Origin: Kappaphycus alvarezii
Taxonomy: Eukaryota; Rhodophyta; Florideophyceae; Gigartinales; Solieriaceae
Reading direction: 5' to 3'
Assembly (NCBI GenBank): GCA_002205965.3
Contig: NADL03000001.1
Location: 1,426,001 to 1,490,000 of the forward strand
Length of the DNA: 64,000 nucleotides
Made by a program: the position numbers and the translations under genes. This document shows positions 1,081 to 40,847 of this stretch, one piece after another. Position 1 is the stretch's first letter. Each line of letters starts with the position of its first letter. Under the pieces are notes generated by a model that worked only from the letters and a program-made list of their open reading frames with translations, had not been told where the DNA came from and did not search any database.

Positions 1081-1881
1081 TTAGTTTTCCGACTCTAGAC
1101 CACTGTCAATAACTTGAGCATTATTCGATGCAATCTTACTTTCCTTATGGTCATTATGTTTCCATGGCCTGCAACCTACTTTGTGACATACAAAGCAGCG
1201 GTTCTCTCTGTACAACCTTTCTTTATCTTTGTCAAATCGACGATTCCTGATTCGATTTTGACCACTGTTGTACCTCTTCTCCACGTTACCGATCTCCATA
1301 GGAACGGGAGCCTGGCTTGGAACATAACTCGACTGTTCACCAAACCTAGAGAACATTCCAGATCCACGTAAAGCACTGTCAACATTCAGAGCGATTCGGG
1401 CAGCTTCTTCCACGTTTGTAACATTATTCTTGAGGACTTCTAGCCTAACCTGTGGCTTGAGTCCGGAGATAAACTTATCTAGCATTTCATCCATTGAGAT
1501 ACCAGGGATGCTCAGAGCCACGTTTCTAAACTCTGAGAGATAAGCTGCAACAGAGTACTTCTGATGCAAACTCCTCAGCTTGTCTCTTGCACGTCGAACA
1601 CTATCAGCGGGTATAAACTCAGCCCTTACCAAATTCTTAAACTCATCAAAAGAATCTGGAACTGCATTGGAGGCAACTTTCATGAACCACCAACTTGCAG
1701 CTGTGCCCGTAAACAAGGTTGTAGCATACATAATCCTAGCTCTATCGTTCAGTGCTAGATCCATATTTTGCATCTGAACGAGCGTAAGGTACTGTTCGAG
1801 CTGGTACAACCAGGTTTCCACGACGAGCCTATCCCGAGTGCCCTTGAACTGCTCTGGCTTATTCGGCTTCAAGAACGACAT
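1081..1881 (-). CDS. gag: Ty3/gypsy Gag polyprotein
   Basis: A 266-residue ORF with the retrotransposon Gag fold signature: FKGTRDRLVVETWLYQLEQY near residues 12-31, GTAASWW (59-65), the F-x-x-x-F helix region around 78-90, and an L-x-x-x-Q-x-x-S-V-x-x-Y pattern around 102-114. A basic linker (about 200-227) leads to one zinc-knuckle-like motif with C229, C232, C237 and H242. Its order is C-x2-C-x4-C-x4-H, not the usual C-x2-C-x4-H-x4-C. Gag would package the element RNA into cytoplasmic particles. It follows a long leader holding the primer site and twin hairpins, and is followed in another frame by pol. The ATG at 1879-1881 is the first in frame. Confidence 0.88.
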   Translation of the reverse strand: MSFLKPNKPEQFKGTRDRLVVETWLYQLEQYLTLVQMQNMDLALNDRARIMYATTLFTGTAASWWFMKVASNAVPDSFDEFKNLVRAEFIPADSVRRARDKLRSLHQKYSVAAYLSEFRNVALSIPGISMDEMLDKFISGLKPQVRLEVLKNNVTNVEEAARIALNVDSALRGSGMFSRFGEQSSYVPSQAPVPMEIGNVEKRYNSGQNRIRNRRFDKDKERLYRENRCFVCHKVGCRPWKHNDHKESKIASNNAQVIDSGLESEN

Positions 1882-16383: not shown

Positions 16384-16393
16384 TGCCTCCCCC
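16384..16393. repeat. Target-site duplication of the MULE, left
   Basis: TGCCTCCCCC, identical to 22526-22535 on the other side of the element. Ten base pairs is within the 8-11 bp range of Mutator-like elements. Confidence 0.93.
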
Positions 16394-16675
16394 GGGAGAG
16401 ACTGAATGTAGGTCGCGTAAAATGTGTAAGAGCTACACCAATCACGGCGCTGAGTTCACACTGGCGCAGCGAGTGGAGTTGCCAAGAGGACCGCGTCCAG
16501 GCCCTCTTAGAGCAGGATTTTGTACGGCCCAATTAGAGCAGAGAGTTCACTCCGCCACGGTGCTTATGTAACATTTTTTCCAATTACTGCATCACAAGTC
16601 ATCTCTGTGACATTTCCGGCCAATCACGCGCTTCCCATTTCCAGTTCTCATAAACTGGGCTATACTGCGTACATC
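16394..16675 (+). repeat. Left terminal inverted repeat of the MULE
   Basis: About 282 bp that match the reverse complement of 22244-22525 with few differences (for example TGAATGTAGG against TGAATATAGG near the tip). Homology fades after TAAACTGGGC. Long termini are typical of MULEs. The similar short frames read from each end are by-products of this repeat, not genes. Confidence 0.92.
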
Positions 16676-17218
16676 AGAAGTGAACAAATAAGGCGCCAAA
16701 TTGGTACCACCAAAGCCACACTTTCGAATTGCTTTGCCACACCAACGTCCGCGTTCGCTAAACCAGCTCCGGCAACGTCCGCGTTGGCGTAGTCGGGGCT
16801 CCAGCAAAATTCTATCGTTTTCGCACAACGTAGGCTGAAGATTGTGGCGCAAAATATAGCGCCAACTGAAGTTAAACCTGCGCACATGAATGCGTGTACC
16901 AGGAAAACCGGAATGCCTGCAACGCTACAAAAGTAGACCACAGCGCATGCATAACAGACATTCCATCGGAGAGTACAATCGCAGCTCTACGAACAAGCTA
17001 TCACTTGGTTTTTCCATACATCTAGGCTCTTTCAGACAGGCATTAGGGGGTAGAGGAAACATGGTTTACTTGTGTTGATCTCGGTCACGTTCTATGATTT
17101 TCAGACCCTCGTCAATTGCCTGGTCAATCATGCTTTTTATTTCGATTCTACCTCTTCTCGTTACACTTTATAGCTCTTGGAAGTTTATCTAGGACCCATT
17201 TTGCGATTGGGATGTGTT
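16676..17218. other. Sub-terminal MULE sequence
   Basis: Between the left inverted repeat and the transposase end. It holds a small direct repeat of CAACGTCCGCGTT (near 16,743 and 16,772) and no recognised gene. Such sub-terminal repeats can be transposase-binding sites; that is only a guess here. Confidence 0.4.
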
Positions 17219-19662
17219 TCATCGCTTGGTCTTTTTCGGTGTAGTCTCAAGGAACGATTTTTTTCGCTTCTGGTTTCGGGTTAGACCTGTATTTGGATTT
17301 CTGACATCTATAGAGTCTTGAGCACTCGCCAGGCTGTTTAAGGAGAGAATTTCGCGTACTTTTGATGTCACCGGAAGCGAAGTTTGCGATCCTGCAATGG
17401 GAACTCGACCGCGAGAGAGTGCTTTGATCGCATCTCCCGAAACAAAGCGAACGCTTTGCAAGGCGAGTGGTCCAATGCTCAAAGCAAGGCCATGAATTTT
17501 GTCTATAAATGCCCTGGCGTCGGACCTTGACAAGTACTCCGTAACCTCCTTCTTGATTTCTGAATCTACGTCGTTTTCCTCAATTCCTTCTCGAGTGGTA
17601 TGAGCTGAGACTGTGGTGCTTTGGACAGTTTTTGAGTGCTGTTTCGCGATTTCAGAACGCATACGTCCTATGTAATGCACTTCACAATCTGTGCGGCAGT
17701 TTTCAGTATGGATAGAATAAATCTTCGAGTCGTACTCGTTCATATAATATGGTTCTCAATCTTTGGTTTCGAAGAAGGATTCCGGGATATGTCACGGCAT
17801 TTCGTACCATGTGCTTGCAAGGAAACCCTTGAATTGAATGCTGTCGACAGGAACAGGCAGCTATCAGCTTGGAGCTCTCTTGGTATCGCTGTGGTTTGTG
17901 GTTCGTCATGAACACTTGATATACGGATGGATTCGTACTGGCTTGATTTTTATCTGGGATGCATTGGAACGTGTCGATGAATTGCAACTGGAATACGACG
18001 ACCTCCTCTAGAACATCCGCATCGGGCACTCAAATGTCAGGCTACGCAGCTCCGCTCATTTTCATTACTTCAGCGCCGATCACAGCATAACGTTTGCTTG
18101 GAACCACGCTCGAGTCAACGAATTTCAGAAAAAAGGAGGCTGTATAGTCTTTCATGAGCTCATTCATATTATTCACTGGTAGGGAGCTGGCACTGCGCAA
18201 TCTTTCTATGATTAATGCTCTGGGGATTAAGGATCTTCTGCTGGGATAGTGCTCTCCTTTCAAAGTTCTATTGGGTGACTCTGAACATTTCCGTCGGGAC
18301 TTTGAAAAGGGTTACCTTTCTTTGGAGAATATGGCGCCGGTACAAAGAGTTCGAGCAATAGGAATACCCTGTCCCTTGAAATAGGTACCGGTACGGCACC
18401 GACTGGTTTCGATAGAAGGCGACGAGCATCCGTGGCTGTTTGTGGTATAAGTTAATGTACCATAAAGGTGGATCTTCCTGGAAGGAGTAAAAGTACTTTC
18501 TTTCAAACTCTGTTCTCCGACTGAGAAACTTCTCCTCAGTTTTGGACTTTCGCATTCTGAAAAGATCTCCTGACATCGCTTCCGATAGATTTTTCCGCCC
18601 AAATTTGCTGCACCATGCCGCACAGTGCTTTAACTGGTTCTGATTAATGTGCTAGTCGTCCAACCCCACGTAGGAAAACTTGAAAACCGTACGCGTAGCA
18701 TTGATACAGGATTGCTTTGGTCCATTGCAATCATGGACGGCGAGAGTCGAATTGTAGATCTAAATTGTTGCAAGACCCTTTCGAAGGATTCTTCTGTCTC
18801 ATTACACAAGAATGCCATAAAAAAAGTTAGAACAAAGCCGTCGTTAGATCTCCCGTTCACAGATAGTAAAGGTAGTCCGAACCTGTTAAATATGGCTTTG
18901 CAGTCAATGCTAACTCCGGGGATCACACCAAATCGCTCGTACTCATCTATCCATTCTCGAAACGCCCATGCGGCGGAGTCCATTTTCCCATCGTCAGTAA
19001 TCGGTAAAAACGCACGATTTCCTGAGTTCTCTTCTATTATTCGTAGTAGTTCCTGGCACAAACGCATGAAATCTTGCTCCTTTGGAGCCTCGACACCAAT
19101 TGCGTAGCCATTCTCTAGTAGCCTTACTATGTCCGAAAAGGGGATGTGAATCATTGTTCGCCTTTTAAAAGTCTCCGCTTGGAGCCTCTGGGGAAGATTT
19201 TTTATGACTCTGTTCATGTTGGGGGTGATTGTGATAGGGTACTTTCATTGTGCAATGATATACCTTCACGACACTGTTATCGGTTTCTTGAATGGAAACC
19301 GAGTCCAAGGTTCTGATATGGCACGTGAAGGGGCATTTCTGCTCAAGCCGGTTCTTATCACACTTTACGATAGCCTTCTGCAATACTGATCGGTGTGTAA
19401 GTCAGTTATATTTCTCTTCCGCTGGCGCCACGATGTGCTTGTGATAACGTGAGCTCCTGATCGTAAGTATATGCCCAAAGCACTCTGCAATATACTTTAC
19501 CTCTCCAAGTACCAGAATTCCTGGCACATTTTCTCCTACTTTTGATATGTAACACATAATTGCCTCGCTGAATAGAATTAACGGATCCTCGTTTGATTCA
19601 CTGCTCTCGATAGAGCTATCCGGCATCTCTTCACTAGCCGCTATTTCATCAGGGCTGTCCAC
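17219..19662 (-). pseudogene. MULE transposase, multiply interrupted
   Basis: Read 19662 to 17219. An acidic N-terminus leads to a FAR1/FLYWCH-like zinc module (CPFTCHIRT ... YHNHPQH, 19165-19383), interrupted by an in-frame TGA at 19402-19404. After a frame break near 19200, beside an A6/T6 run, comes the catalytic core (18630-19217) with IDCKAIFNRFGLPLLSV (first Asp), ETEESFERVLQQF and IAMDQS (second Asp). Just after it the frame breaks again near 18715, and the following conserved stretch carries a TAG. The SWIM zinc finger CSC...FPCKH lies at 17703-18029, with more breaks, then a basic tail to 17219. The domain order is that of MuDR-type transposases. As read it cannot make an active enzyme. 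Confidence 0.88.
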
Positions 19663-19777
19663 GGGGTCGGTTCTGGCGCCCGGGTACCTGACGGAAGTAA
19701 AAAATGTGTTAGTACTTCCTCATCATCCATAAATGAGTCAATTAATAAGACAGTATCGTCTGGTTCGCATTCTTCTG

Positions 19778-20248
19778 TCAGATGTTCATCATCAATTGGA
19801 TTCGTAGTCCAACTTCTATATTCCTAAATAAATCCGGACAGTCTGCTCTCTGGTTCCCAGTTTCACATTCGTCTGGCAAAAGCCCTGCAGTGGAGCAAAT
19901 GCTTTCATCTAACCCTTGGACACTACCATTTCCCACATCTGTTATCGTTCCATGTCTATTTTCAATGCTCCCATTCCCTGAAAAAGACATTGGAGCAAGG
20001 GCACAGTCCCCGCCGTTCTTTACTCCAATCCGTGACAATCCCTTCGTCAGAGGCCCACCTGATATGGATCCACTATTAGCAGCACTGCCTTCCCCTTGTT
20101 TTGCCTGCCGTTCTTCTGCCATCTTCCGGTCATAGTATGGGATCAAAGTCCTTTCTATTGCAGACCAAACAGGCTGCAATGTCTCATCAGCTTTCCATTC
20201 CTTAATACGCCCTTTTATTGAGCGGATAGCGGCGTTGTACCTTTCCAT
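19778..20248 (-). CDS. MULE-internal ORF, 156 aa, unknown
   Basis: It lies between the Ulp1 ORF and the transposase on the same strand. The first 50 residues are charged and helical (RSIKGRIKEWKADETLQPVW, RKMAEERQAKQ); the rest is Gly/Ser-rich low complexity. No family is recognised. It could be a linker of a once larger protein, since neighbouring frames continue into similar sequence. Confidence 0.35.
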   Translation of the reverse strand: MERYNAAIRSIKGRIKEWKADETLQPVWSAIERTLIPYYDRKMAEERQAKQGEGSAANSGSISGGPLTKGLSRIGVKNGGDCALAPMSFSGNGSIENRHGTITDVGNGSVQGLDESICSTAGLLPDECETGNQRADCPDLFRNIEVGLRIQLMMNI

Positions 20249-20334
20249 GGACAGTGCTCCTGAGACATGGATTGGCGGATGTGTATGCGTCGACGTTCGG
20301 AACGTTTTCTAACGCATCGTAGAAGGATGCATCT

Positions 20335-20793
20335 TTACAACGATTGCACAGCGGTATGAGTTAGGGGCTTGTACTTGATGCAACAAAGACGTCCTGTTAC
20401 GATGTTGTTGTGTTGCATATGATGCCTATTGATCTTCTTCAGCCTGTGTACACCAAACTGTTCACCAGTTTTAGAAAGATCGAAAAGTAGCTTTGGCAAG
20501 TCGTTAACCTCTTCAGTGAAAGAAGCCAAATCGGTTTGTTTCTCGGTACGTTTCGATGGAGGATTGCTGTTTTGGCCATAAACATCATCCAGTGAGTCGT
20601 ATGTTTTGCATGAAATATCCTCACGAGGGATTGTGCTAAGCAGGTTTTCTATAAAACTTGACACAATCGAGTTACTGTCTTGGAAACGAATTCTTCTATG
20701 ACTTTTTAGACATGTAGAACTCTCTGCGAAAGAGCGGTTAAACCAGGCAGTTCTGTCCTTGCGAATCTTGTCCAGCTTCACAGCCCTCGCCAT
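20335..20793 (-). CDS. MULE-internal ORF, 152 aa, unknown
   Basis: It begins 16 bases after the Ulp1 stop, same strand. Basic N-terminus (MARAVKLDKIRKDRTAWF) and a later KRTEKQTDLASFTEEVNDLP stretch; near the end HRLKKINRHHMQHNN. No recognised domain. The tight spacing suggests it is either a second cistron of the element or the broken-off C-terminus of the protease protein. Confidence 0.35.
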   Translation of the reverse strand: MARAVKLDKIRKDRTAWFNRSFAESSTCLKSHRRIRFQDSNSIVSSFIENLLSTIPREDISCKTYDSLDDVYGQNSNPPSKRTEKQTDLASFTEEVNDLPKLLFDLSKTGEQFGVHRLKKINRHHMQHNNIVTGRLCCIKYKPLTHTAVQSL

Positions 20794-20808
20794 AGCTACT
20801 TGCTTTGA

Positions 20809-21960
20809 CTACATCATGTGCTTCTCTTGATGACTTTTCCATCTCTCCGACGACGCAAACGCATCCTCAGTTACTTCCTGGATACTCTTCCGCGGACAAC
20901 TGTCCTCGTGTTCTTCGTCAACACGCTCCATTACAAGCTCCGTAGTGATCGCATACTTGTGATGGCGTTTAGGTTCAGCAACTTCTGCTACTAATTTCGA
21001 CTTTGCAGTTTGCTGCATCGTTAATCCCTTGTTCCTGGTGCTGAGTTCGTAAGAGGATACCTCTCCGTCGCCGATCGCTGTCACTCCTTTACTTCGAGCT
21101 GCATCAATGATTGTTTTAACCCGGAAAATTGCAGCGCCCCAGCTGTACTGCTCTGTTAAGCTCGGATTGTAACCAGTAGCAAATTTCCGGGTTAGCAAAT
21201 ACCACATCACTGAAAAAGTAGTAAATGCAGCCAAAACATACGCACCACAGCTATATCCATCTTTCTGTCGATGAAATTTGATATCGTGCAGCATACAGTT
21301 CTTCCTAGATGTTGTCCAACGAACCAATTTATGCGGGAAGACATGATCAAAGGCAGTCTGGAAGAATTTGATGATACAAGGAGCGCATATGTAGGCAAGA
21401 CTGTCCCCGAACGATACCAAGCGATCCTCACCATTTTTCAAATGGTTGATTGATCTCTGTGCCAGAAGCATACCCCAGTGCCTGTTATCAAGGTTGAGCA
21501 GTGTGACCACGGTTTTCACCTCTCCCTTCCCAGCAATCATAGGTGAACAAAAAGCATCTGCAAACAGATCCAGATGTTCTTTCTTGTACGTTTGTGCCGT
21601 GTTGCAGTCATTGTAGAAGTTGGTAGCAATGCCAGACAAAAAGGCTCCCAAAACACAACTGCAAAACACAATGCCATCCTTCGGCTGCAGCGTTCTGATG
21701 CCAGACGTTATTAGCACATTGCACATATAGCTTTTCGGTCTGCAGTTCAAAATGAACACATTAGCGTCAAGAGTATTCCTTTCGTTGATCATGAGATCGG
21801 AAATGTGATACCTGACTGTAATAAACTGATGATGACTTGTTTCATCGGCTACATCAAACGACATCTTTCCTATACTTTCCAGATGAGCTAAAAACCAGTC
21901 TACTGATTTCCTTTCGGCGCTGGTGAGTGCTTTATAACTCGCATGTGGATCGACGATCAT
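20809..21960 (-). CDS. Ulp1/C48-family SUMO-type cysteine protease of a MULE
   Basis: An uninterrupted 383-residue ORF. The C48 catalytic elements are all present in order: H161-W162 in LDNRHWGMLL, D186 in SFGDSL, the oxyanion Gln Q232 and nucleophile C238 in QKDGYSCGAYV. The segment LQPKDGIVFCSCVLG (91-105) matches the usual substrate-side entry helix region. The family cleaves SUMO-like modifiers from proteins. In a MULE its role is unknown; it may counter host modification of transposase or chromatin. A stop lies just upstream in frame, so the ATG at 21958-21960 is the likely start. The region after residue 265 has no recognised domain. Its open frame contrasts with the ruined transposase nearby. 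Confidence 0.85.
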   Translation of the reverse strand: MIVDPHASYKALTSAERKSVDWFLAHLESIGKMSFDVADETSHHQFITVRYHISDLMINERNTLDANVFILNCRPKSYMCNVLITSGIRTLQPKDGIVFCSCVLGAFLSGIATNFYNDCNTAQTYKKEHLDLFADAFCSPMIAGKGEVKTVVTLLNLDNRHWGMLLAQRSINHLKNGEDRLVSFGDSLAYICAPCIIKFFQTAFDHVFPHKLVRWTTSRKNCMLHDIKFHRQKDGYSCGAYVLAAFTTFSVMWYLLTRKFATGYNPSLTEQYSWGAAIFRVKTIIDAARSKGVTAIGDGEVSSYELSTRNKGLTMQQTAKSKLVAEVAEPKRHHKYAITTELVMERVDEEHEDSCPRKSIQEVTEDAFASSERWKSHQEKHMM

Positions 21961-22243
21961 GACTGCTGATATGGCTTATGCAGTGCGGCTTTGGGTTAGC
22001 TACACTTACAATCAGGAACTGGGTAGCGGGTCTCGCCGATAAACCGATAAGATGGGAATGGACAAACAGGAATTGGATGGCTTTGGTGCGGGAATGGAAA
22101 AACAGGTCTTGGTTGGCTTTCGTGTGAACGATCAATCAACGATCAAAAGCGAACCAAAACTGCGACGGTATGGTCGTATGGTAAGTTCATGAGTTTGAAA
22201 AGAGTGGGGCTACCCGAGCAGACTGCGGCGGCCTAAAATTGAG

Positions 22244-22525
22244 GTGTACGGCCGTACAGCCCAGTTTATGAGAACTAGAAATAGGAAGCACGTGATTGGC
22301 CGGAAATGTCACAGAGATGACTTGTGAGGCAGTAATTGGAAACACTGTTACATAAGCACCGTGGCGGAGTGAACTCTCTGCTCTAATTGGGCCGTACAAA
22401 ATCCTGCTCTAAGAAGGCCTGGACGCGGTCCTCTTGGTAACTTCACTCGCTGCGCCAGTGTGAACTCAGCGCCGTGATTGGTGTAGCTCTTACACATTTT
22501 ACCCGACCTATATTCAGTCTCTCCC
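22244..22525 (-). repeat. Right terminal inverted repeat of the MULE
   Basis: Reverse complement of 16394-16675 with scattered substitutions. Its tip on the minus strand reads GGGAGAGACTGAATATAGG. Confidence 0.92.
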
Positions 22526-22535
22526 TGCCTCCCCC
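22526..22535. repeat. Target-site duplication of the MULE, right
   Basis: TGCCTCCCCC, identical to 16384-16393. Only 13 bases separate it from the 3' tail of the neighbouring non-LTR element. Confidence 0.93.
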
Positions 22536-22548
22536 TCCATTCTATTTG

Positions 22549-25238
22549 TTTTTATCACTATAATATGTATGTGCAACACTGTTAAGTAGCCACAAAATTC
22601 AATTTGAGTAGGGTGACTAACTTCTGCGTGTTGCGGGGCTCGACATATTACTGACGCCGCGCTTGTGGACCAAATAGCATAGCTTAGTTTCTGGTATAAG
22701 TAATAAAAGGTCACCATTCCTCCCCCCTGGTATAAGCGGGTCTTCACCCCCCCGTAGAACATCCGCTGCGCGATGCGAAAGCTGCCGCGTATTTTCTCTA
22801 TGACCTTTGATGATGTCCCAGAAGGTGATCCTAACGAGTCAAAAGCCAGCGGCACAAAATCCCATCCTAATCTTGATCTTCCAGGCAGGACGTCGCCAGA
22901 AATGGCAGCCACTTTCGTGGCTAGGTACCTCCTCTTTTGCTTGTCTGCTGCGTTGGCAACGGCTCGCGCTTTTCGTGCTCCCATTGGCATATAGCACTCC
23001 AGGAATGGCGAGGATACGGTGATGTCGTAGGCCACTGGAAGAGGGGCGGGGTGTTCAATGCGTCGGATCGCGGGTGCACCAGAATATCTGCGGGTCGCGC
23101 ATTCAGTCCGGGGAGTAGGTATTTGACCTCATATTGGACGCCAACTCCTGCTGCTTTAAACAGCTCTCTCCCAAGTACTCTCACAACTGCTGTATGCCGG
23201 TTGGTCCACCCGAGACCTTTGTTACAAAGGTCTGCTGCATGGTCCCCTAAGAGATCCATGGGCCTATGGCACTCAGCGCACTGAGCGGTGCGGTGTCGTC
23301 AAACACGCGAACTCCAGGTGACGGCGTAGCATCACTGTCCACATCTCGTTGGACGTTCGGTTGACTACAGCGGGGTGTGCGGTGAGGAAGGCCCCTGCCT
23401 GCGTTTCCAAGTATGCATGACGTCGAATTCTTCGCCGAATATCTGCTTCTGAATGCGATATGGGGTTTGGCAACCTCTTCCATTCGTCGTCCTTCCAGAA
23501 GAACTTTGCTGCAGACTCGCACCAGGCTCGATACAGAATGTTGTATGTACTATCGGGCTTGGCTGCGAGGCTTGCCGCTGTCAAAGTTTCCGGAAGACTG
23601 CCATCATTAGTGACGGACGCAGGGAGCCGTCGGACAAACTCCCGGAGGTGTGTATCCGCTTCAGCGTATCGGTGTTCAGTCTCACCACTGTCCTCAGGGC
23701 TCCGCAGCAGCTCGGCGTCAATTATGCTCGCAGCATATGCTGCGAAATTAAGCGTTGCTATAGGTGTAAAGCCGTGACCGCCATAGCGGAGAGGTAAGGA
23801 TACCTGCTGTTGAACTGCATCAGTCATCGGCACGTTGTTAGAGCTTGCGTAAATTCGAGTTGGTCGTCGTCGAATCTCAGTGCAGTGGCAGTGGTCACAC
23901 TCGGCGGAGTTAGCTTCACCACATGTTGAAGCTTGCAAGCGGATGCACATACCCGGTGAAGGTGGAACCGAATTCGAGCGTCTCCGATACCGTCAATCAG
24001 CGCAATGTGTGCTTGCAGCTTCTGATTTTCTCGTTGAGAAAATCTTCCATAAACTGTGACGACCCAATTGGGGCCCCAAGAAGGTCGATGCCTTCGTGGA
24101 AAAGTTCTCAACTGGGAAGCGGTGGAATAGTGGCGATGTGCAGTTACCGAGTCTGTGCGGCCAGAACAGACGGGTTTTTGCGTGATTCAGATATAAGCCA
24201 TGGTCAGGTCCTCTGGAGCTGAGGATGTCGACTGCCCTCTCGAGCTCTGTATGAGTGCCGATGAGAGTGCAGTCGTCCGCATACCATCTATGTAGACTAA
24301 GCTGTGTCTGCTGGGCAATTTCTGTTGCTAATGGATGCACAACAAGAGAAAACAACAGCATGCTTGCAGGGTCCCCCTGTTGCATACCTTCTTGGCTAGG
24401 ATGTCATGTGCGGCCGCTACGGGCAATATCAGCGACGGCGTGTTGCGGGCGTATACCATGTTCAGAAAACGACACAGCGACGGTACTTTGGTCGGCAGCA
24501 AATTTATCATGCGCTGTCTCGAGAACCGATTGAATGCGTTGTGTGCATCCACGGATACCAGTGCATGCTCCTCGTCCTGGCGCTCAACCAGTCTCCGTGC
24601 TTCGTGCACAATGGAGTCCAGTCCGCTGGGCACGCCATTGGCCACTTGCAAGGGTGCGAGGTACTCCCTCGTGTCTTCTATTGCTTGTGGTAGGAGCACC
24701 TTTGTTACGAGTCGCCGCAAGGCCGTCCCAATAGCAATGGGGCGAATCTTGTCTGGCCGAGGTTGGATGGGCAGCAGCGTCGCAGAAGAGATCAGAGGGA
24801 TTGTGTCGTCTGGTAAGTCCCCTTGGGCTAGTCTTGTCACAACTGCAGTTAGCGCCGAGATGCCCGTCACACCTGCTTCAGGACTCACCGTTGTGTTGGC
24901 CAAGAATCGAAGGAGCCGAGGGGACATTCTGTCCGGACCCGGCGCGGAGTTTGGTTCAAGCGTCGGACGGCGTGTAGGACTGCCTCCTCAGTGATGTCCA
25001 TCGGGAGCGGGAGGTCTCTCGTGTCGATGGCTGTCACAGGAGAGTTCGGTGCAGGGTGCAACTCTCGCAGACGTTCCAAAACGTGTGGGTCCCGCACGTC
25101 CGCAATGTGCGACTGATGTAGGGTGCGCATCGCACGCCCGTATTGTGCATCTGCAGCTAGGTGGGCTGCTCGGCGAAACTTTGGGTCTCGCTTGTTGTCT
25201 ATCTGGGTTCCTCCTTTGGTTATTACCCCGTTCCGCAT
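22549..25238 (-). pseudogene. Non-LTR retroelement, copy A (RT plus restriction-like endonuclease)
   Basis: Read from 25238 down, in pieces separated by frame breaks. An N-terminal region (KFRRAAHLAADAQYGRAM) leads to reverse transcriptase: PIQPRPDKIRPIAIGTAL, ANGVPSGLDSIVHEARRL, VSVDAHNAFNRF (first catalytic Asp), MQQGDPASMLLFSLV and RWYADD (polymerase box). The C-terminus has a Cys/His stretch (GDHAADLCN...RHTAV), then EVKYLLPGLNARPADILV and AYDITVSSP, and later GWDFVPLAFDSLG. That is the arrangement of a PD-(D/E)XK endonuclease of R2/CRE-type elements. The 3' end is a short TGATAAAAA tail. Breaks near 24950, 24385, 24000 and 23270 make it a dead copy. Confidence 0.8.
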
Positions 25239-29231: not shown

Positions 29232-30509
29232 TCAGCAGCTGAATTCATGGTCAACCCTCGCCTTTTTCAGAGCTGGCTCTTCGCTCCCTTCCCTTTCGCC
29301 CGTGACATCTCCCTCAGTCTCCTCCTCTATGTCTCTGTCGCCTTCACACTCAATGTCCTCTGCTGTCGCGCCCACTACTCCTCCCTCGACCTTCACAACC
29401 ACATCTGAAACCACCTCAGCGTCCGCCGTGATTTCCTCCTCAACATCTTCTACCGCCACCCTGTCGCACTCGTTTTCATCCTCGACCCTTTCATTTCCCA
29501 AGTCAGTTTCACCTTTCTCCTGCTCACGCTGTCGGTCATGACTTTGACCGTCTCCCAGCTCTACATCAACGTTATCCGCGTCTCTACTTCCCGCCGCTTC
29601 CCTCATACCCTCTTCCCCTACTTGCATTTCTTCACCCTCGCCGCACCTCTCCACCTCTCCTGTCACGCCAACCCGAGCCACTCCCTCATTTGTCACTTCC
29701 AGTGATATTTCGCCTTCCTCTTCCTCAGCAATTTCGAGTTTACTAGCAACCCTTTCCAACAGCCTTCCCTGAGTCTGCAATACGCTCATACATGCTGCGA
29801 CATTTTCCTTCAACTCTCCCAACATCCTCATTACCATGCTATGCTCCCTTTCCCTCTTTCCAACACTAACCTTCCCCTCTGCAACGGCTCCCTCACAAAT
29901 TTCACTTGTTCCCTTTCCTTCCGCATTCTCAATTTCGTTCTCCACTGCCGCATTATCGTGTGATCGTATTGGCAACAACAAGGGCTCATCACGCAAAACA
30001 GCCTCGACTTCCTTGAAAAAAGGATAGGCCCTTGCTTTCTCTGGGGACTGCTTAGCACTATCGCGTGATTCCTTGTACGACGCAATGAGATTCTTCCAAC
30101 GTACAGAACATTGGGAAGCAGTGCGGTGGTGTCCAAACTGACATCGCATCCTTTCAGATAATTCTTCCCAAAGGGAACGGTTACGTTTCATGGCCTGAAA
30201 TTTGATGTTCATATCGTTTCTCAAGGAGATGAGCGCACGCGTTTCCACTGCGGTCCATGGCTTTCGATCCGATGACGAAGACGGACACATACTTTGCGGT
30301 CGAAACTTTGCTGTCTCGTTCCAGACAAGAGAAGGCTTCGGACTTGATTGCGTGCTTTGCTTAGGGGCAATGTGGGCTGCGACGGAGTGAGAGGCGAGAG
30401 GTTGAGTTGGTGTAGGTTTGGATGGGATTGGTTGGTATGTAGTGGCCTGAGAAGAGATTGACTGATGTGGCATCGAGAGCGGTATATACGATGTCTTTGG
30501 GCTACGCAT
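29232..30509 (-). CDS. Trihelix / Myb-SANT-like DNA-binding protein
   Basis: An intact 425-residue ORF. Residues 1-80 are a Ser/Pro/Gln-rich tail. Residues 83-172 form a trihelix (GT-factor, Myb/SANT-like) domain with the three spaced tryptophans W85 (KPWTAVETRALISLR), W114 (RSLWEELSERM) and W138 (QCSVRWKNLIASYK), followed by the family's fourth-helix region ending YPFFKEVEAVL. Residues about 212-265 are heptad-like (MLGELKENVAACMSVL, ERVASKLEIAEEE) and may dimerise. The C-terminal third is very acidic, with a short basic KKAR near the end. The family binds GT-type promoter elements in the nucleus. It lies between retroelement copies A and B. Lack of breaks argues for a living host gene. Confidence 0.75.
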   Translation of the reverse strand: MRSPKTSYIPLSMPHQSISSQATTYQPIPSKPTPTQPLASHSVAAHIAPKQSTQSSPKPSLVWNETAKFRPQSMCPSSSSDRKPWTAVETRALISLRNDMNIKFQAMKRNRSLWEELSERMRCQFGHHRTASQCSVRWKNLIASYKESRDSAKQSPEKARAYPFFKEVEAVLRDEPLLLPIRSHDNAAVENEIENAEGKGTSEICEGAVAEGKVSVGKREREHSMVMRMLGELKENVAACMSVLQTQGRLLERVASKLEIAEEEEGEISLEVTNEGVARVGVTGEVERCGEGEEMQVGEEGMREAAGSRDADNVDVELGDGQSHDRQREQEKGETDLGNERVEDENECDRVAVEDVEEEITADAEVVSDVVVKVEGGVVGATAEDIECEGDRDIEEETEGDVTGEREGSEEPALKKARVDHEFSC

Positions 30510-38481: not shown

Positions 38482-38966
38482 TGTGAACTTTCAGTAGATC
38501 TCTTTCCTGCCGGTAAATCTCTCTTCGATGCTTTAGGTGTGGTCTGCAGAAGTAAACCTTTTTCGTTGTCGCTGGCGTGATCCCATCCACATCCTCACGA
38601 TTCGCGAGTCTCCAAAGTACTGTGTAGTGCGTGACATACTGTACTGTGCAGTACAGTATTTTGCAGGCTATGCCTCTCTAGTAACTATTACTGTAAGCAT
38701 TCTGTTTTACAGTACCATTCTCTGCCCTCATTTTGCCAGGGCCCCTTAGTGTAGAGTACCGTACAGTACAATACAGTACAGTGAATTTCTTCCTCATTCG
38801 TTATCTGCCTTAGAACTGTATCTGCTACAATAAAATCTGTAATGGAAAACAAAATTTTTCGTCCGCTCTCGTTTGGTACTGTACAATGTTGTACAAATGC
38901 CTTCAAACAGGCGGGATGTCTACGGTAAATGTAAAATACTGCGATGGCGGTCGATCCAATGGCGGC
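38482..38966. promoter_or_regulatory. Shared divergent promoter region, GTAC palindromes
   Basis: Lies between GET4 (minus) and peptidyl-tRNA hydrolase (plus). At 38636-38659 two 11-base arms ATACTGTACTG / CAGTACAGTAT form a perfect palindrome with a 2-base centre. Further CAGTAC tracts sit at 38756-38783 and 38876-38895. No clear TATA box. These palindromes are the best candidate regulatory sites in the window, but function is unproven. Confidence 0.5.
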
Positions 38967-39722
38967 ATGAGAAGCACAACGAAGACTGCCTTCTTCACTG
39001 CAAACGCTATCGTCAGTCAGGTATATCATGCAAGACGCTTTTCCGGACAGCGACAATCCATCTGCCGTCCGCATCGACCAGAAGCATCGGCAAGAGCTTC
39101 CGCGGCAGAGCTCAACGTATCAAAACAGCGAAGCGATACCCTAGTCCTCGTGGGCCTAGGAAACCCTGGCCCAAGGTTTGCTGGAACGAGGCATAACGTT
39201 GGCTTCGATATCGTAGAGATATTTGCGCAGCGTCATGGCGGAGCGTTCTCAGTCCAGAAAGGCATTCAAGCGGATGTTGCGGTTGCTCACGTTGGCTCTT
39301 GCACTGTTCACATTGTCAAACCGAGAACATTCATGAACTTATCTGGAGATGCCGTGCGAGCAATACTTCGCAAGACCAATGCACCGCGTGCATCTCTTCT
39401 TGTTGTTGCCGATGATTTGGCTTTGGACGTGGGCAGGCTGCGACTCCGCGCGAAAGGAAGCCCAGGGGGCCACAACGGGCTCAAGAGCATAGAGGCACGT
39501 TTAGGAAGTCGTGAGTACGCTCGTTTAAAAGTGGGGGTTGGAAGTCCGAGCCTTGGGGCAGAGCAATGGAAGGACCATGTATTAACTAAGTTTTCGAAAA
39601 ACGAATCCCGGCGGCTGCAAGAAGTCATGCTTGACTGCATGGAAGTGCTTGATCTCTGGGTCTCGGAGCCTGATATCAACAGAGTCATGAACTACGCAGG
39701 CAACTTAATCGCGAAGAAGTAA
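38967..39722 (+). CDS. Peptidyl-tRNA hydrolase, bacterial type, organelle-targeted
   Basis: Releases tRNA from peptidyl-tRNA that drops off ribosomes. Counting from the ATG at 38967 (251 aa), the first 55 residues are rich in Ser, Thr, Arg and Ala (MRSTTKTAFFTANAIVSQVY) and look like a plastid or mitochondrial transit peptide. The Pth fold follows with every key element: LVGLGNPGPRFAGTRHNVGFD (cut here as two motifs, G-L-G-N-P-G at 63-68 and catalytic His76), FMNLSG with Asn124, VVADDLALDVGRLRLR with the Asp pair at 149-150, and GGHNG with His169-Asn170. The frame also opens at an earlier ATG (38886, 278 aa). The gene is intact and intronless. It ends 35 bases from the end of the GALT gene, which faces it. 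Confidence 0.93.
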   Translation: MRSTTKTAFFTANAIVSQVYHARRFSGQRQSICRPHRPEASARASAAELNVSKQRSDTLVLVGLGNPGPRFAGTRHNVGFDIVEIFAQRHGGAFSVQKGIQADVAVAHVGSCTVHIVKPRTFMNLSGDAVRAILRKTNAPRASLLVVADDLALDVGRLRLRAKGSPGGHNGLKSIEARLGSREYARLKVGVGSPSLGAEQWKDHVLTKFSKNESRRLQEVMLDCMEVLDLWVSEPDINRVMNYAGNLIAKK

Positions 39723-39757: not shown

Positions 39758-40847
39758 CTACTCAGCGGCAGGGGTATCCCGTTTGTTGTAGTGTTCCTCT
39801 GAACAAGCAGCAAGCCTCGCGGCCGCCTGTTCCGCGGTCAGGTCACGCTGGGCCTCCCAGCATTTCGAACCCAACCATAAACTTTCTAACGGTTGCGCTT
39901 CGGAGCAACGGAGGATAGAAATGCATGTGGAAGTGAGCGTACGGATGAGCTGCGGGGTCAGTTCCATCCTCAGTGGGTGCCTGATGAATGCCCATCGAGT
40001 ACGGAAACAGGGTAGTAAACAAATTGTCGTATCTTGCAGTGACGCGACGGTAAATATCGGCGAGATCTGCTTTCATTTCCGACGTGAAATTGAGCAGGCA
40101 AGGAACGCGGGTCTTTGACATCACAAGAATCTCAAATGGCCAAACCGCCCAAAATGGAACCACAGCAAGGAATGAATCATTTTGACAAACGATTCGCACT
40201 TTTTCCGCTAGCTCAAGTTGTACGTAGTCCTCGAGAAGGTGAGTGCCCTTGGCAACGTGGTACTTCTCTAAGTTTGTGAGCACAGTGCGTGGCTCCTCAG
40301 GAACAAATTCAGATGCCCAGATCTGGCCGTGGGGGTGCTGATTTGAGCACCCCATCATTTCTCCTTTGTTCTCAAATATCTGAACATGGCCAATGTAGGG
40401 AAGCTTAGCCAGTGACGCATATTCGTCCACCCAGGCATCAATCACATGTCTGATCTCATCTACGGTCATTTCAGCAACTGTCAAGTTTAGCTTCGGGGAG
40501 AAGCATACTACCCGGCATTTGCCTTTGACCGCCTTGGCAACGAGAAGGTCATTTGATTCAACGTCACCGACGGAGCCACTTGGCGTGTCCGGCAAGAGAG
40601 CCATGAAGTCATTGTCAAATACGAAGGTTGTGTCATATACCGGATTCTGTATGGTGCCATTCACACGGAAGTTGCCGGGGCCTAGATAATCTTTTGGATC
40701 GTACTCTGGGCGATCATCTGACGGACGTTCCTCAACCGATCCTTGCCAAGGTCGTTTCGCTCGATGCGGAGAGCAGAGGACCCAGCGCCCGCTTAGAGGG
40801 TTATAACGACGGTGGGGGTGCTCATTGTAGTCAAAAGCTGTTGCCAT
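39758..40847 (-). CDS. Galactose-1-phosphate uridylyltransferase (GALT), one frame break near the end
   Basis: Leloir-pathway enzyme that swaps UMP between UDP-glucose and galactose-1-phosphate in the cytosol. The main frame (40847-39843, 334 aa) shows RRYNPLSGRWVL (13-24), SPHRAKRPWQG (26-36), the active-site GCSNQHPHGQIW with nucleophilic His173, and a late HFHMHFYPPLLR. It then stops after FEMLGGPA. With one G fewer in the GGG/CCC run at 39850-39858 the frame continues EAQRDLTAEQAAARL to a stop at 39758, exactly as family members do. So the true protein is about 360 aa and this copy holds a 1-base insertion, real or artefact. No intron. In a red alga the enzyme would also feed galactan and floridoside metabolism. 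Confidence 0.93.

Follow-up and report, generated by a model that had tools for sequence, protein, structure and literature searches.

The window, a 64,000-nucleotide stretch of the Kappaphycus alvarezii genome, carries a decayed MULE of the type with terminal inverted repeats (TIRs), whose ancestral transposase was probably one large protein with an N-terminal Ulp1-type (C48) protease domain, a conserved segment (J2), two zinc modules, a DDE region, a SWIM zinc finger and a C-terminal tail. We assign this reading a probability of roughly 0.7, a figure that covers the lineage and the architecture of the protein but not the tag-removing role that is proposed for the protease below. The element spans positions 16394-22525 of the window, and its features were as follows.

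16384..16393, no strand: target duplication, left copy, 10 bp, TGCCTCCCCC, read directly
16394..16668, plus strand: terminal inverted repeat, left arm, 275 nt, 95% complementary to the right arm
17222..17701, minus strand: C-terminal tail, kept in distant copies
17706..18173, minus strand: segment with the SWIM zinc finger (PF04434, 19.7 bits), two stops
18181..18708, minus strand: segment past the DDE region, two stops
18714..19223, minus strand: MULE transposase DDE region (PF10551, E 3.1e-7)
19222..19674, minus strand: zinc module 2, one stop, FAR1-like C..C..HNH pattern by eye
19677..19790, minus strand: acidic linker segment
19811..20359, minus strand: zinc module 1 and a helical-looking linker, one stop, C..C..HTH pattern by eye
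20365..20808, minus strand: J2, conserved segment in the frame of C48, immediately past the TAG
20812..21960, minus strand: C48 (Ulp1-type) protease domain, open frame of 383 aa (Pfam, relatives, hhalign), with the TAG at 20809-20811 directly after it
22251..22525, minus strand: terminal inverted repeat, right arm, complement of the left arm
22526..22535, no strand: target duplication, right copy, 10 bp, TGCCTCCCCC, exact, read directly

Both terminal arms begin GGGAGAGACTGAAT, and the similarity between them peters out at about 280 nt. The inverted termini of 282 bp and the exact 10-bp repeat that an earlier note had read from this DNA were recovered, the termini as arms of 275 nt; a random 10-mer would match at one fixed place with a probability of about 1e-6. 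The element has the marks of a MULE, namely a target duplication of about 9-11 bp (10 bp and exact in the window, 9 bp and exact in the C585 copy described below), long TIRs, which are common in MULEs though not universal, and a DDE transposase domain. The latter scored 31.2 bits against PF10551 (cut-off 27.6) when the window segment was used, and 26.6 bits on the 1,573-aa read-through of the whole coding region. The SWIM zinc finger scored just above the PF04434 cut-off of 19.6 bits, and the MULE identity that the same note had proposed holds up. Neither Rfam nor tRNA scanning gave a match in the window.

When the genome was searched with the terminus, 11 matches were obtained, of which two were the window's own ends. 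The same termini recur at a second insertion elsewhere, which has different flanks and its own 9-bp duplication, so that the check by terminus suggested in the earlier note did uncover another copy. Full-length copies were found at C585:4496075-4502260 and C447:852936-859022, each bordered by CTGTTTGCC; because their flanks and duplication are common to both, they were counted as one insertion site. The C447 copy was accordingly rejected as an independent insertion, and it is also a mosaic (L010, C447:852600-859400), one half of which matches C585 (L009) at about 99-100% and the other the window at about 99-100%, with 75-79 small gaps. This mosaic may go back to gene conversion or to an assembly that is chimeric and poorly polished, and the C447 copy as such may be an artefact of the assembly. 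C821 holds a partial copy, and more distant families, with termini 75-79% similar, are found at C14, C685 and C585:421289. The element at C585:421289 has TIRs of 275 nt (88% complementary) and a duplication in which 7 of 8 bases agree, and that at C10 has TIRs of 287 nt (97% complementary) and a 9-bp duplication with one mismatch, as judged by eye. At C685:859006-871651 (L011, L012), the ends of a relative are separated by about 12.6 kb, double the usual length; this copy perhaps holds a nested insertion.

Read from C48 to the tail, the window copy changes frame seven times, which breaks it into eight segments, and contains seven stops; its DDE region falls 45 bp short of that in the two sister copies. 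The window copy is dead, and the element cannot be called complete in the coding sense, as the earlier note had it; its maximum product could be a free 383-aa protease domain. Gaps of one to four bases are numerous in the C447 copy, a warning that sequencing errors may account for some of the frame breaks seen here. Introns are unlikely to lie behind the frame changes, because C685 has a single frame, with few stops, for J2, both zinc modules and the DDE region.

The central question is whether C48 and the transposase were made as one protein or as two. A single TAG is all that separates C48 from J2 in the window, where the two have a common frame. The earlier note had described C48 as a separate ORF, upstream of the transposase and on the same strand; position and strand were confirmed, but the separateness was not borne out by other copies. 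In the C585 sister copy, a sense codon occupies the position of the window's TAG (its own C48 frame breaks slightly earlier), and the copy at C813 (L025) is open across the C48-J2 junction, with a stop further on. Moreover, the C10 copy contains a 386-codon open frame that runs from the C48 catalytic core into J2, with the N-terminal part of C48 in another frame. Given these three junctions, the separate ORF is better read as the result of one nonsense codon in a once-continuous frame. Further along, a 281-codon frame in C749 leads from the linker through J2 into zinc module 1, and the single frame of C685 takes in J2, the zinc modules and the DDE region. Counting frames was rejected as proof of fusion on its own, for the C48-J2 frame is kept in four of the 11 elements in which both parts were seen (C10, C592, C447:953557 and the window, one of them with several stops), which is about the third expected by chance. 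Because frame agreement is near chance, the case for fusion rests on the absence of stops, on the comparison of junctions and on the non-conserved second start: homology to C585:421289 reaches upstream of the supposed second start, and the Met is absent there in that copy. Among the copies examined, none was intact from C48 to the tail. Most likely, as judged from these sequences, the ancestral product was one protein of about 1,550 aa, with C48, J2, zinc module 1, zinc module 2, the MULE DDE domain, SWIM and the tail in that order.

We consider it rather unlikely that the element instead carried C48 as a gene of its own, closed by its own stop and analogous to the ULP gene of plant Kaonashi. 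Such a gene would agree with the TAG at the end of the window's 383-aa ORF and the ATG a few codons on, with the 343-codon C48 ORF of C590, which ends in a frame other than that of J2, and with the plant precedent described in the available excerpts of PMC13317346 and PMC2528002. It is, however, at odds with the sense codon in C585, with the open junctions of C813 and C10 and with the homology that runs upstream of a start that C585:421289 does not have.

Genome searches at E <= 0.001 gave 56 C48 and 65 transposase matches, which were merged by hand into 45 and 48 places, respectively; these counts are lower bounds. At 41 of the 48 transposase places, C48 was located no more than 6 kb upstream and on the same strand, and strand agreement was seen in all 41 paired places (41/41). 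Seven of the 48 transposase places and four of the 45 C48 places had no partner. C48 and DDE distances were correlated (Mantel r 0.839, reached by none of 5000 permutations) in 22 elements; these were drawn from 23 with both domains, after C14 had been dropped for having too little C48 sequence, and other paired places were left out. The nearest neighbours by C48 and by DDE agreed in only 8 of the 22. From the pairing at 41 of 48 places and the correlated distances, we infer that C48 and transposase were paired long ago and have stayed together almost throughout the family in this genome. The C48 segments of C10 and C749 are very near those of C636 and C470, with DDE segments that are more distant, and this mismatch may stem from module exchange or from misread frames in decayed copies.

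Measures of constraint differed within and between subfamilies. The C48 domains of the window and C585 gave a dN/dS of 0.86, and within subfamilies the C48 values were mostly about 0.7-1, with outliers from 0.43 to 7.6 where synonymous changes were few; there is therefore little constraint on the present copies, as expected of dead copies. Between subfamilies, median pS was 0.79 and median pN 0.47-0.48 for C48 (200 pairs with the window as query, 202 pairs with C10 as query), and pS was 0.85 and pN 0.38 for the DDE core (185 pairs). At this distance, then, synonymous sites are saturated and the amino acids are still alike.

These data also bear on the idea that C48 is mere cargo: part of a host ULP gene, captured a single time, that has since been copied with the element but has no function in it. 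Captured host genes are frequent in MULEs, according to excerpts of PMC2528002, and cargo would be as nearly unconstrained as C48 is within subfamilies. We nonetheless regard this as improbable, since amino acids have been kept between subfamilies despite saturated synonymous sites, and since the catalytic residues survive in most of the 22 elements (Q232 in 21, C238 in 19, D186 in 19 and H161 in 17). Moreover, the match to host-type C48 is remote, and none of the genome's 18 PF02902 matches overlaps a MULE C48 place. A lineage whose protease forms one protein with the transposase, stays in position and diverges along with it speaks for an activity that is part of transposition or of silencing escape, and not just cargo.

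Very improbable, in our assessment, is recoding, by which stop read-through or a frameshift would yield both a free protease and the fusion protein from one message. A TAG stands at the junction in both the window and C447, but C447, as a mosaic of the window and C585, is not independent. Two copies, L036 and L041, shift frame at the same spot between C48 and J2 (near residue 297 of the C10 query). The same indel arising twice, common descent or a slippery site could account for this, and the shared shift would suit recoding as well. Against it, three copies of the same L036/L041 subfamily read through residue 297, and small indels are common in this assembly.

The C48 assignment itself was examined by profile comparison, a check that the earlier note had called for. 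When searched against Peptidase_C48, the 383-aa ORF (20809-21960, minus strand, with its stop) scored 16.6 bits (E 0.0072), which on its own is below the curated Pfam cut-off of 20.7; among its aligned relatives, 5 of 10 members matched PF02902 at E <= 1, the best at E 2.8e-6. When the alignment of these MULE C48 domains was compared by hhalign with six C48 matches of the same genome, the probability was 93% (E 3.4e-7), and H161, D186, Q232 and C238, the four residues named in the earlier note, were in register within the aligned part. The order and spacing of these His, Asp, Gln and Cys residues are those usual for C48. One of the six same-genome references, C587:532435, was searched against the PDB and proved to be a clear SENP1 relative (E 1.7e-33). 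PDB profile matches of the MULE C48 domain itself were weak (best E 0.04), and the four at E <= 1 were RickCE, two XopD sequences and yeast Ulp1; we take RickCE and XopD to be C48/CE-type proteases. These combined data indicate that, as far as sequence comparison goes, the 383-aa ORF is a genuine, if remote, C48 domain of the Ulp1 type. That the ORF is some other domain, as might be argued from the sub-threshold Pfam score, the weak PDB matches and a single-sequence structure model of the window ORF that was useless at a pLDDT of 36, can be practically dismissed in the face of the relatives' PF02902 matches, the hhalign result with its catalytic residues in register and the protease identity of all four PDB matches.

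Protein searches with C48 alone and with its alignment returned only P0001, under length limits that precluded the showing of long fused proteins. The 1,573-aa read-through protein had no match at E <= 0.001 among 4404 candidates, and 256 pattern matches in viral contigs included no relative. C48 matches with internal stops were also noted outside the MULE lineage, at C759:179601, C511:469140, C511:485058, C814:651186, C168:126975 and C37:50565; these may belong to other transposons.

Cut-and-paste movement with a 9-10 bp duplication is standard for MULEs. For a fused transposase of the kind preferred here, the zinc modules would bind the terminal repeats and the DDE domain would move the element by cut-and-paste. 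C48, carried to the element's chromatin by the zinc modules, would then strip SUMO or a similar tag from the transposase itself or from factors involved in silencing or repair. This tag-removing role is put forward tentatively, at less than even odds; a real alternative is that C48 cuts its own fusion protein. Tag removal at the element is preferred because the fused zinc modules would carry C48 there, and because excerpts of PMC2836005 suggest a repair role and those of PMC13317346 link Kaonashi-type genes to VANC anti-silencing, and ULP-bearing VANC genes to silencing escape. In its widest form the proposal is a MULE lineage in which a SUMO-type protease became a fixed N-terminal domain of the transposase, independently of plant Kaonashi, so that each molecule would bring a deconjugating enzyme to the element ends as a built-in means of anti-silencing or repair steering; this we hold to be somewhat doubtful. 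Fusion makes the role of the protease testable with one protein.

What follows on published systems refers to the available excerpts of the papers cited. Ulp1-type domains are not confined to one kind of DNA transposon: plant MULEs, CACTA elements and Ginger1 all have them (PMC2528002, PMC2836005). Kaonashi belongs to a non-TIR MULE with three genes, and the precise function of ULP in plant MULEs is called unknown (PMC13317346). In Arabidopsis, the ULP domain lies opposite to mudrA, and in melon and rice both orientations occur; in melon, ULP is also found in TIR-MULEs and Jittery-like MULEs, and CACTA elements carry ULP too (PMC2528002). The window lineage resembles Kaonashi (KI/KIU) of Arabidopsis and the ULP1-MULEs of melon, rice and grapevine in having a MULE transposase and a C48 remote from host ULPs in one element (PMC13317346, PMC6117577, PMC2528002). 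In Kaonashi, however, the element is non-TIR and the ULP gene is separate and opposite to mudrA, whereas the window lineage has long TIRs, C48 on the transposase strand at every paired place and probably one fused protein. A separate ULP gene, the architecture that the earlier note had proposed for this element, is the arrangement published for plants (PMC13317346, PMC2528002).

That note had also described Ulp1-bearing MULEs as known from plants. This is correct for Kaonashi but too narrow, since PMC2836005 lists Ulp1-bearing Mutator elements from hydra and lancelet; earlier reports of such protease carriers thus cover hydra and lancelet as well as plants. Compared by description, the window lineage is like the hydra and lancelet elements in being a MULE with Ulp1 outside land plants (PMC2836005); for the lancelet sequences of another report, MULE transposases could not be found (PMC6446971). 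Ginger1 has a C-terminal Ulp1 or OTU and thus likewise an Ulp1-type domain fused to a DDE transposase, but that transposase is of another superfamily, and in the window lineage the domain is N-terminal (PMC2836005). The Rhodophyta MULE-Cc elements, again compared by description, share SWIM, one ORF and long TIRs (192-640 bp in MULE-Cc) with the window lineage, as well as a 9-bp duplication in one MULE-Cc group; one of the red-algal groups was noted to have various inserts, potentially host derived (PMC6446971). The terms ulp, C48 and peptidase are absent from the main text on these groups (PMC6446971), and the main text of the VANC papers likewise makes no mention of Ulp1 (PMC5735166, PMC10398659). 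No report of a MULE-C48 fusion or of red-algal Ulp1 MULEs was found in a search that lay outside Repbase and most subscription papers.

Several other features of the window were noted. Two overlapping ORFs at 23993-24927 (minus strand) resemble, as judged by eye, a decayed non-LTR reverse transcriptase with a YADD motif; a Pfam scan of the ORF at 24328-24927 (minus strand) gave no match. A Ty3-type gag lies at 1081-1881 (minus strand) and a Myb/SANT-like protein at 29232-30509 (minus strand). Long uninterrupted ORFs encode a peptidyl-tRNA hydrolase at 38886-39722 (plus strand) and a galactose-1-phosphate uridylyltransferase at 39843-40847 (minus strand).
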